The notes beneath the pieces were generated by a model. It saw nothing but the letters and a program-made list of their open reading frames with translations, had not been told where the DNA came from and searched no databases. Made by a program: the position numbers and the translations under genes. Below, piece by piece: positions 5,759-13,160 of a DNA stretch of 64,000 nt. This DNA is from an uncultured Roseobacter sp. (GTDB lineage: Bacteria > Pseudomonadota > Alphaproteobacteria > Rhodobacterales > Rhodobacteraceae), in assembly GCF_947493125.1 (NCBI RefSeq), contig NZ_CANLQB010000003.1:434001-498000 (forward strand). Direction: 5' to 3'. Numbering within the stretch: position 1 is the stretch's first letter; every line of letters begins with the position of its first letter.

Positions 5759-5795
5759 TTTTGTGATCACGGCATTTCTGAGTGTGATCACAAAA
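5759..5795. promoter_or_regulatory. Paired GTGATCAC operator upstream of sucC
   Basis: TTTTGTGATCAC (5759-5770) and GTGATCACAAAA (5784-5795) are exact reverse complements. Each arm contains the self-palindromic GTGATCAC (5763-5770 and 5784-5791), with a 21-bp repeat distance, two helical turns. The same architecture with the same spacing occurs before sdhC (13083-13119). This is best explained as tandem sites for a dimeric regulator of TCA genes. The protein is not identifiable from this window. Confidence 0.8.
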
Positions 5796-6287
5796 GCCAT
5801 CAGCTTCACAATTTTCATATAAAGCAAGGGATTCGCGCGGGGTAGGGGCTTGGATAGCAAACGCCATGCGGTGACACGACCCAATGTATCGTCCTGTCCC
5901 TGATAAGGGGTGCCTCAGCGCGGCGGCTTCAGCGCGAGACGGGCCATGCGTGATGATCGCGCCGGCGCGGTTCTGCCTCCACCTCGTGACGCGGCCGTCT
6001 AGAGAGCCGGCGGGCTGGCCGCGCCCTATCGCTGGCGGCAGCTCGTGTTCGACAGACATCGCCTCCGACGCCGGACATGGCAAGGCTGACCACGAATCGT
6101 CCACCGGCAGGGCTCTCGGCACATACTCATCTCCGCCCGGCGCCTGTCCGGTTGGGAGCGCGTCTCAGTCCGGGCTGAAGGTCATTCCCCGAACGCCTGC
6201 GTGCCGGGTGCTGAAAGGCATGCCTGTCTCGCGCCTGACGGGCAACTCTTTGGGCCGCATTGCAGGGTCAGCGCTTGGTTCCGGCAC
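5796..6287. other. Intergenic region between sucC operator and mdh terminator, no gene recognised
   Basis: About 490 bp. The open frames crossing it on either strand (for example minus 5643-6122) have low-complexity, Arg/Pro/Ala-rich translations and no family features. An AT-rich patch (CACAATTTTCATATAAAGC, 5817-5825 region) next to the operator is the likeliest place for the sucC promoter. Nothing else identifiable. Confidence 0.5.
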
Positions 6288-6314
6288 AAAAAAAGGCGGG
6301 CACGATGGCCCGCC
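6288..6314 (-). terminator. Intrinsic terminator of mdh
   Basis: Read on the minus strand: GGCGGGC, a 6-nt loop, GCCCGCC (6314-6308 with 6301-6295), then seven T residues (6294-6288). It lies 22 bp past the mdh stop. A perfect 7-bp GC stem plus T-tract is a strong rho-independent terminator and separates mdh from sucC transcription. Confidence 0.9.
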
Positions 6315-6336
6315 TCGTCCGTGTCGTGCCGGCGGC

Positions 6337-7299
6337 TCACGCCAGCGTGTTGTCGATACCCTTGCACGCCTCGACCAGACCTTTCACCGCACTGACCGAG
6401 TTGTCGAACATGGCCTGCTCGTCCTTGTCCATGGAAATCTCCACGATCCGCTCGATACCGCCCGCGCCGATCACCGTGGGAACACCGACGTAAAAGCCTT
6501 TCAGCCCATAGGCGCCATCCACATAGGCCGCGCAGGGCAGTACGCGCTTCTGATCCTTCAGATAACTTTCCGCCATCTCAATGGCCGAGGTTGCGGGTGC
6601 ATAGAAGGCCGAGCCGGTTTTCAACAGGCCGACGATCTCGGCGCCGCCATCGCGGGTGCGCTGCACGATCGCGTCGAGTTTCTCCTGCGTGGTCCAACCC
6701 ATCTTGACGAGATCGGGCAGGGGGATGCCGGCGACGGTGGAATAGCGCACCAGCGGCACCATCGTGTCGCCGTGCCCGCCCAGAACGAAGGCAGTGACGT
6801 CCTTCATCGACACGTCGAATTCGGTGGCAAGGAAGTGCCGGAAGCGCGCGGAATCGAGCACGCCCGCCATGCCGCAGACCTTCTCATGCGGCAGGCCGGA
6901 GAATTCGCGCAGGGCCCAGACCATCGCGTCGAGCGGGTTGGTGATGCAGATGACAAAGGCGTCGGGCGCGTGGTCGCGGATGCCTTCGCCCACGGATTTC
7001 ATGACCTTGAGGTTGATGCCCAGCAGGTCGTCGCGGCTCATACCCGGCTTGCGCGGCACACCGGCAGTGACGATGCAGACATCGGCGCCCGCGATATCCT
7101 CGTAGGACTGCGTGCCGGACAGAGCCGCGTCGAACTTGCCCGACGGGCCGCTCTCCGCGATGTCGAGCGCCTTGCCCTCGGGCGTGCCCTCGGCGATGTC
7201 GAACAGGACAACGTCGCCCAACTCCTTCAGCGCCGCCAGATGAGCGAGCGTGCCGCCGATTTGACCGGCGCCGATCAGCGCGATTTTGGGTCTTGCCAT
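6337..7299 (-). CDS. mdh: Malate dehydrogenase (LDH-like, NAD-dependent)
   Basis: 320 residues. Oxidises malate to oxaloacetate with NAD in the TCA cycle. Dinucleotide motif GAGQIGG at about 11-17, Asp of FDIAEG near 34 favouring NAD, mobile-loop [11 protein letters not shown] (about 82-92), NPLDAMVW at 121, and catalytic [10 protein letters not shown] with His about 176. The Arg-rich PRKPGMSR loop distinguishes MDH from LDH within this family. Terminator follows at 6288-6314. Divergent from the TauE/SafE permease gene; the 179-bp shared upstream region holds a TTGCGCAA octamer (7356-7363), whose significance is unclear. Confidence 0.97.
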
Positions 7300-11634: not shown

Positions 11635-11649
11635 GCGAAAGGTCCGATC

Positions 11650-12366
11650 ATGCGGAACACCCTGCTGAGCCTCCTCCTTACCTGTGCGGCGCTGGCCAGC
11701 CCGCTGCAGGCGCAAACCCGCGAGGATGCTTTTGTCGAGGCCAATGTGCTCGCCATCCTTTACCACGAGATGGGCCACGCGCTGATCGACATCCTGCAAT
11801 TGCCCGTCTTCGGGCAGGAGGAAGACGCCGCCGATGTGCTCAGCGTGCTGCTCATCCACGATCTCTATGACGAAGAGGCCGCGGCAGGCATCATCTATGA
11901 CGCCGCCTTCGGCTTTCTGGGAGAGGCGGAGGACAACGCGCCCGTCTACTGGGGGGTGCACGGCCCCGACCTGCAGCGCTACTACACGATGATCTGCCTC
12001 TTCTACGGCGCCAACCCCGAGGCCCGCGAGGATCTCGCGGTCGAGTTGGAGCTGCCGGAAGAGCGCGCCGAGACCTGCCCCGAGGAGTTCCAGCTCGCCT
12101 ACGACAGCTGGGGCCCGGTGCTGTATGAGATCACCGCCGAGCAGCCGGGCAACTCCATGACACTCGCCGGGGCCGGGGACGATGTGATCGGCGTTCTGAT
12201 GGCCGATGAGGTGGCGGCGCTGAACGAGGATTTTGTTCTGCCGGTCCCGCTCACCTTCCGTGTGGAGGCTTGCGGCGAGGCCAACGGGTTCTATGATCTC
12301 GACACCCGCGAGATCATCATTTGCAGCGAGTTGGACGCCTATCTGCGCAGTCTGGCAGATTTCTGA
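11650..12366 (+). CDS. DUF4344-type putative zinc metallopeptidase, exported
   Basis: 238 residues with a signal peptide (RNTLLSLLLTCAALASPLQAQ). ILYHEMGHALIDILQLPVFG (about residues 37-56) contains the zinc-binding HExxH signature; ADVLS follows at the place where DUF4344 members have a conserved acidic segment. Four cysteines in the mature part (MICLFYG, ETCPEEF, EACGEAN, IICSELD) fit periplasmic disulfides. Substrate unknown. It starts 15 bp after mch and may be transcribed with it. Confidence 0.82.
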   Translation: MRNTLLSLLLTCAALASPLQAQTREDAFVEANVLAILYHEMGHALIDILQLPVFGQEEDAADVLSVLLIHDLYDEEAAAGIIYDAAFGFLGEAEDNAPVYWGVHGPDLQRYYTMICLFYGANPEAREDLAVELELPEERAETCPEEFQLAYDSWGPVLYEITAEQPGNSMTLAGAGDDVIGVLMADEVAALNEDFVLPVPLTFRVEACGEANGFYDLDTREIIICSELDAYLRSLADF

Positions 12367-12419
12367 CGGGCTCCGAGATTCTCCGTATCATATCGGGCCC
12401 GATTGCGTAATCTGGCGCA

Positions 12420-13160
12420 ATGAGACGTCTGCTCCTGCCCCTGCTCTGCGGCCTTTTCGGAGGCCCTCCTGTGTTGGCCTGCCAACTGGCGCTGGTGCTG
12501 GCGGTGGACGTCTCCGGCTCGGTCGACAGCCGGGAATACGACATCCAGATGCAGGGCCTTGCGGCGGCCCTGCGCGAGGGCGTGATCATTGATGCGTTGA
12601 TCGAACAGGAGGCCCAGGTCACCCTGATCCAATGGACCGGCTCGTCGCGGCAACGCCAGACCATCCCCTGGACCGCCATCCGCACCGCCGAGGACGTGGT
12701 GCGGCTCGCCGATCAGGTGGGCAAGAACCGTCGCGTCTGGCGCAACTACTCCACCGCCATCGGCGAGGCGCTGGTGGCAGCCGAGGATGCCCTGCGCGCG
12801 GCGCCCCAGTGTACCCGCAAGGTGATCGACGTCTCGGGTGATGGCATCTCCAACGAAGGCATCCACCCGCGCGAGCGGCATCCCGCTCTGGCGGAGATGG
12901 ACGTGACCGTGAACGGCCTTGCCATCGAGACCGATGAGGAGGACCTCACCGGCTGGTTCTATGAGAACCTGATCCGCGGCGAGGGCGCTTTTGTCATGAC
13001 CGCCAATGGGTTCGCGGATTACCCGCACCAGATCAGGCGCAAACTGCAGCGCGAGATCACGCGGCCGCTGAGCCACCACCAGATTTGTGATCACGCCGCT
13101 TTCGCGTGTGATCACAAATACCGAAAGATTAAGGTTTTTCCGACAAACCGCGCCAAATAA
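12420..13160 (+). CDS. DUF1194 (von Willebrand A-like) exported protein
   Basis: 246 residues. After a short signal sequence (ending PPVLAC), ALVLAVDVSGSVDSREYD holds a DxSxS MIDAS metal-binding motif, and IDVSGDGISNEG near residue 140 is the second conserved segment, as in DUF1194 proteins. The last about 25 codons run through the paired GTGATCAC operator of sdhC (13083-13119), giving an odd tail with two CDH tripeptides. Related proteins probably end close to REITRPLS, so the tail looks like read-through into regulatory DNA. Function unknown; likely periplasmic. Confidence 0.82.
   Translation: MRRLLLPLLCGLFGGPPVLACQLALVLAVDVSGSVDSREYDIQMQGLAAALREGVIIDALIEQEAQVTLIQWTGSSRQRQTIPWTAIRTAEDVVRLADQVGKNRRVWRNYSTAIGEALVAAEDALRAAPQCTRKVIDVSGDGISNEGIHPRERHPALAEMDVTVNGLAIETDEEDLTGWFYENLIRGEGAFVMTANGFADYPHQIRRKLQREITRPLSHHQICDHAAFACDHKYRKIKVFPTNRAK
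13083..13119. promoter_or_regulatory. Paired GTGATCAC operator upstream of sdhC
   Basis: ATTTGTGATCAC (13083-13094) and GTGATCACAAAT (13108-13119) are exact reverse complements. The GTGATCAC cores are 21 bp apart, identical to the sucC operator, and 128-156 bp before the sdhC start, close to the 117-145 bp for sucC. The site lies inside the end of the DUF1194 reading frame. Likely bound by the same regulator as the sucC site. Confidence 0.8.

Follow-up and report, generated by a model that had tools for sequence, protein, structure and literature searches.

Two pairs of short palindromes precede the sucC and sdhC genes in the DNA of an uncultured Roseobacter sp., and the question that they raise is which protein reads them. 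The stretch analyzed, hereafter the window, spans 64,000 nucleotides (positions 434,001 to 498,000 of contig NZ_CANLQB010000003.1, assembly GCF_947493125.1). An earlier note, made from the letters of the window, had implied a shared regulator of the tricarboxylic acid (TCA) cycle, matched at that stage to neither CceR nor AkgR. This regulator is almost certainly AkgR: judging from sequence comparisons and published data, the two sites are very probably operators of this GntR/FCD protein, encoded elsewhere in the genome. The regulon is already known from Rhodobacter sphaeroides.

Paired palindromes upstream of sucC and sdhC

Both sites hold two exact copies of GTGATCAC set 21 base pairs (bp) apart, at 5763-5770 and 5784-5791 upstream of sucC, and at 13087-13094 and 13108-13115 upstream of sdhC. 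The copies lie within perfect inverted repeats with 12-bp arms, TTTTGTGATCAC-N13-GTGATCACAAAA at the sucC site (5759-5795) and ATTTGTGATCAC-N13-GTGATCACAAAT at the sdhC site (13083-13119). Both intervals, to which no strand is assigned, are predicted paired AkgR-type operators, conserved in relatives before sucC and sdhC, respectively. The layout is exactly that described in the earlier note, which also gave correct distances to the starts of sucC (5646, minus strand) and sdhC (13243). The note saw the pair at these two places only, which is true of the window and of the whole 4.83-Mb genome, where no other exact pair with A/T flanks was found, the next best place having one mismatch. GTGATCAC occurs six times in the window, whereas 100 shuffles average 1.08 and never reach six. 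Single copies reside at 33925 and inside sucD; the latter had been noticed before, and its position is 915-922, one base off the 916-923 originally given. The sdhC operator falls within the 3' end of the upstream open reading frame (ORF, 12420-13160), beyond the end of its DUF1194 domain. The frame stays open across the operator and ends with a stop at 13160, and homologs of this ORF in loci L072, L073 and L084 stop 3-43 bp before the operator.

Scanning 394 genomes sampled from the family (393 genera) for the flanked pattern, with up to two mismatches and a fixed 21-bp spacing, revealed the pair in 339, mostly in one or two copies per genome. The 30 best-ranked loci all precede sucC (25) or sdhC (5); neither scatter in coding DNA nor a lack of conservation before the two genes, the outcomes that would have spoken against the reading of the earlier note, was seen. 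There is good support for the view that one TCA-cycle regulator acts at both promoters via two neighbouring palindromes on the same face of the DNA: the pair has been retained upstream of sucC and sdhC in the family, and its occurrence follows that of a single regulator (see below). CTAG is a rare word, and a control search with the reversed pattern, which contains it, is weak; shuffled sequences, other families and genomes lacking AkgR are relied upon instead.

Among 385 genomes distributed across the class, exact pairs with a 12-13-bp spacer were found in 5/5 members of the family (own genome included) and in 2/380 genomes of other families, G539 and G594. The G539 site (L248, 972-1020) is a triple made up by ATGATCAC, GTGATCAC and GTGATCAC at 20- and 21-bp steps, one copy being degenerate, and precedes a GntR/FCD-type gene whose product is 29% identical to AkgR. 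This suggests that tandem spacing may belong to the regulator subfamily, beyond TCA promoters. In G539 the AkgR-like gene is followed by a short-chain dehydrogenase gene, and a divergent ORF resembles TonB receptors by eye.

AkgR as the probable regulator

The genome of the window yielded 24 matches to GntR-type genes; 20 regions were taken, four with long frames being excluded, and 17 proteins were used as queries, upon exclusion of two DeoR-like proteins and one broken gene. At E 1e-3, tblastn gave no match for any of the 17 in 20 stretches of 18-20 kb around sdh, most of which run from the sucC operator to past sdhB and none of which takes in the distal end of the suc operon. As no GntR match was found in the sdh loci, the regulator was sought by co-occurrence. 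In four genomes (G143, G184, G364 and G066) akgR resides towards that distal end, some 9-10 kb away from sucC.

The 17 proteins were compared to 47 FCD genes of nine small genomes bearing the pair, and only two have orthologs in all nine, the AkgR candidate and a protein called here L053. The AkgR candidate (G000:C3:185300-185947, about 248 kb before the window) carries GntR and FCD domains. The 10-mer TGTGATCACA is found exactly at its own start in seven of ten genomes (own included) and in degenerate form in two more, vs. none of ten for L053. In the window's genome akgR lies directly behind a gene for a YgjP-like metallopeptidase (Pfam; G000:C3 near 185281, L243), and the upstream ends look similar by eye in several relatives. 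An ortholog with GntR and FCD domains, GTGATCAC in the promoters, and sucCD and sdh operons as targets are thus all found in this organism.

The 2015 mBio study of Imam et al. reportedly found AkgR to activate TCA genes directly. We take RSP_0981 of R. sphaeroides to be AkgR. The link of AkgR to GTGATCAC, its targets and its activator role come from the literature: in the accessible text of PMC6365646, GTGATCAC is reported among the AkgR sites of R. sphaeroides and AkgR is called a transcriptional activator, and in that of PMC4344238 the predicted targets of the GntR-family protein RSP_0981 are RSP_0967-6 (succinyl-CoA synthetase), RSP_0974-6 (succinate dehydrogenase) and RSP_0965-62. Three 24-mers of Table 3 of PMC4344238 map on contig C4 of genome G051, at 2222951, 2223847 and 2515296, within the chromosome-1 chromatin immunoprecipitation (ChIP) intervals published there; this contig is therefore, or is nearly identical to, chromosome 1 of R. 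sphaeroides 2.4.1. It features exact pairs before sucC (2729958) and sdhC (2734762), and an ortholog of the AkgR candidate, 77% identical, at 2739669-2740304, 0.76 kb past sdhB. Since RSP_0974-6 are the succinate dehydrogenase genes, a GntR-type gene beside sdhB fits RSP_0981, an equation made on position and family rather than on locus tags.

In the 394 genomes, where AkgR was called at E of at most 1e-60 and 18 of the 38 negatives were deduced from absence among the matches listed, AkgR and the pair occur together in 329 and are both missing in 28, with AkgR only in 27 and the pair only in 10 (odds ratio 34, Fisher p 1.5e-19, shared descent ignored). From the 55 pair-negative genomes, 32 of the 33 at least 97% complete were re-read (G109 was left out), the set leaving aside the other 23. 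A sucC match was obtained in 31 (not in G190) and a locus in 30 (not in G314); G201, with a truncated sucC match, was excluded, and 29 were counted. Scanning spacings of 9-44 upstream of sucC, the only spacing test free of a fixed pattern, revealed a pair in 14/14 genomes with AkgR and 0/15 without. Twelve of these pairs have a spacing of 20, and two a spacing of 21 together with either altered flanks or a single mismatch. The operator spacing found is 20 or 21 bp.

Promoter geometry and mode of action

Sites, conservation and co-occurrence with AkgR were derived here from sequence, as was the fixed helical phase of a -35-like element at sdhC. Of 21 distinct sdhC promoters, 15 have a GTGAC -35-like element that begins 58-61 bp past the proximal palindrome; the distance is 71 bp in the window, and 79 and 80 bp in two. 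The operator is accompanied by CGTGAC in 186 of the 394 genomes. Among the 150 matches listed, which were not individually annotated and some of which may precede sucC, the offset is 57-60 in 134, 67-71 in nine, 76-79 in five, with single matches at 54 and at 66. A 10.5-bp repeat fits the phase of the 16 listed matches whose offset is not within 55-62 (none of 20,000 uniform draws did as well; Rayleigh p ~0.002; relatedness ignored). The putative sdhC -35 thus sits about 58, 69 or 78 bp out, moving by helical-turn steps. In the window the predicted -35 is GTGACA (13186..13191, plus strand), about one helical turn farther out than in most relatives, and the predicted -10, read by eye, is TAATAA (13208..13213, plus strand), with a 16-bp spacer.

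Across 42 distinct sucC promoters, TTt is conserved at positions +48 to +50 and A/T content peaks at +72 to +75, which suggests that these are the sucC -35 and -10. In the window they would correspond to a weak -35, TTCCCT (5710..5715, minus strand), starting 48 bp from the proximal palindrome end, and, 17 bp further, to TTATAT (5687..5692, minus strand). Both were placed by the conserved columns alone: a scan for consensus sigma70 promoters lends no support at sucC (mean best score 5.16 vs. 5.75 in shuffled sequences), the corresponding figures for sdhC promoters being 5.91 vs. 5.24.

From operator to promoter, A/T content oscillates between troughs of about 10-30% and peaks mostly of about 70-100%, with best periods of 9.75 bp (sucC) and 10.25 bp (sdhC) and a periodic power of 1.24 and 1.17, where shifted controls do not exceed 0.18 and 0.25. 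Beyond the operator, away from the promoter, the power is 0.23 at sucC, exceeding the control maximum of 0.06, and 0.10 at sdhC, where the control maximum of 0.14 is not reached.

At akgR itself the palindrome is single. In the closest 80 of 498 named relatives, which are not independent (many are Sulfitobacter, Tateyamaria, Roseobacter and Salipiger), GTGATCAC was found upstream of the akgR start in 79, mostly at -16 or -17, and in all 79 TTGAC starts 16-19 bp upstream of the palindrome; akgR of the window's genome has the same layout. Given the position of TTGAC, the palindrome would lie between the -35 and the -10, the latter being inferred, and this suggests that AkgR represses its own gene in most of the relatives examined.

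From these data we infer that two AkgR dimers would bind side by side on one DNA face, one per GTGATCAC palindrome and two helical turns apart, either as neighbouring dimers or as a dimer of dimers. Placed about 50-70 bp upstream of the -35, AkgR would help RNA polymerase to initiate at the sucC and sdhC operons, whose expression would rise and fall together, and would repress akgR through the single palindrome. Two dimers on one face, A/T patches recurring in phase about every 10 bp and an sdhC -35 moving by whole turns also raise the tentative idea, on balance doubtful, that the AkgR pair and five or six phased A/T patches form one curved or wrapped activation complex. If true, the family would share a TCA-cycle switch coded in geometry, the shape of the DNA bringing RNA polymerase within reach of a distant FCD activator.

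It is unlikely that AkgR represses at the pair, or switches between repression and activation with an effector. FCD regulators are commonly repressors, and the akgR promoter, in 79 of the 80 best loci, has the site just behind TTGAC, a repressing position. Atu1419, a tetrameric FCD regulator, also represses, and looping between its palindromes has been proposed and seen by microscopy (PMC7797058, accessible text). By contrast, at sucC and sdhC about 48-80 bp separate the pair from the -35-like element downstream, with a helical phase conserved at sdhC. This is a typical activator position, in line with the activator role attributed to AkgR in PMC6365646.

Observations at odds with AkgR and other conceivable readers of the pair

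Several observations weigh against activation of both operons by AkgR. Ten genomes have the pair without an AkgR match; seven of them are at most 88% complete, and the remaining three, less readily put down to incompleteness, are G256 (93% complete), G019 (91%) and G114 (100%), where either assembly gaps or a replaced regulator may be responsible. G017, which lacks AkgR, has a weak 20-bp pair with three mismatches at the usual place. On a SucC tree of 55 rows, six changes of the AkgR label are needed and well-supported branches force only one, so that co-occurrence partly reflects shared descent. The GTGAC element is missing in three of the 21 sdhC promoters. At the start of R. sphaeroides akgR, TTGAC is retained and GTGATCAC is missing; self-repression is therefore not universal. 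Finally, L053 has orthologs in all nine small pair-bearing genomes, and in a 64-genome comparison in 32/32 pair-positive genomes, vs. 31/32 for AkgR.

As the two proteins are equally widespread, co-occurrence alone cannot separate them; the self-site and the literature do. A different GntR/FCD paralog such as the L053 protein (G000:C1:30830) reading the pair in place of AkgR is quite improbable, as GTGATCAC is missing upstream of L053 orthologs in 10/10 loci, G004 and G017 have L053 homologs (53-55% identity) and no good pair before sucC, and the accessible texts of PMC6365646 and PMC4344238 connect the word and these operons with AkgR/RSP_0981. L053, having neither self-site nor literature support, is disfavoured. 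It is hardly credible that the pair, a perfect inverted repeat able to form a hairpin, arose by chance or serves, in the absence of any regulator, as a cruciform or an RNA element, given its retention in the family, the mere ~1e-4 chance pairs expected per genome at one spacing (from 25 single words in R. sphaeroides), the conservation of both palindromes while the inner spacer varies, and a presence that follows a DNA-binding protein.

The assignment to AkgR provides a single, easily recognised switch for a central aerobic energy step in a common bacterial family, and names the regulator in genomes where akgR lies far from its targets. With its fixed spacing and helical phasing, the layout predicts cleanly how a GntR/FCD protein would activate rather than repress. 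From the self-operator, which R. sphaeroides lacks, one would expect a feedback loop that could not have come to light in studies of that species.

Predicted target genes and further copies of the site

The sucC gene (4453..5646, minus strand) encodes ATP-grasp and CoA-ligase domains (Pfam), and sucD (413..1300, minus strand), coding for the same enzyme, CoA-binding and CoA-ligase domains; other ORFs lie between them, and no further suc genes were identified within the window, although no search was aimed at sucAB-lpd, the third predicted target of AkgR. The second target (13243..17605, plus strand) is made up by sdhC, sdhD, sdhA, two small ORFs and sdhB, with Pfam domains for SdhC, SdhA and SdhB, sdhD being assigned by position and sequence. 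Between both operators resides mdh (6337..7299, minus strand; lactate/malate dehydrogenase domains in Pfam), which lacks an exact pair of its own.

The genome has five copies of TGTGATCACA, at akgR, sucC, sdhC, C5:91095-91104 and C19:17422. The single copy at G000:C5:91095-91104 (L246) immediately precedes a gene for a universal stress protein (Usp in Pfam), possibly a further AkgR target. The copy at G000:C19:17422 (L247), whose surroundings show no clear promoter, may be there by chance.

Comparison with known systems

The R. sphaeroides AkgR regulon shares with the present one the operator word GTGATCAC (PMC6365646), the sucCD and sdh targets (PMC4344238), a 77% identical regulator and both pairs. 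It differs in that akgR is located beside sdh there, about 248 kb before the window here, and in that akgR has a self-operator here and none there. The architecture, that is 20/21-bp spacing, whole-turn phasing, A/T patches and self-site, is described here as read from the DNA, and novelty over the 2015 paper is not claimed; no description of paired spacing, phasing or self-site was found in the accessible literature searched, which excludes that primary AkgR paper.

CceR (RSP_1663), a LacI-family regulator of central carbon metabolism, is likewise predicted to act on sdh, and on mdh, in R. sphaeroides (PMC4344238, accessible text). Its published motif, [AGT]GTT-N6-8-AAC[ACT], is absent from both operators and from 5647-6336, and CceR was rejected as reader of the pair. 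One match at 12955, within the ORF upstream of sdhC, makes a CceR input to sdhC possible. CRP/FNR-type sites (consensus TGTGA-N6-TCACA and TTGAT-N4-ATCAA) were found neither in 5647-6336 nor in 12900-13242.

The PS417_07240-type regulator of Pseudomonas simiae is GntR-type, 32% identical to AkgR, and has GTGATCAC near its own start (-47 to -40). It differs in being associated with deoxyribonate clusters, and the accessible text mentions a single palindrome and no pair (PMC6365646). Atu1419 of Agrobacterium fabrum belongs to the FCD family as well, and each dimer of its tetramer can bind one 10-bp palindrome. Yet the palindrome is ATGTATACAT, and the sites of this repressor are 109-190 bp apart, with looping (PMC7797058, accessible text), whereas AkgR sites are 20-21 bp apart and occupy what would be an activator position.

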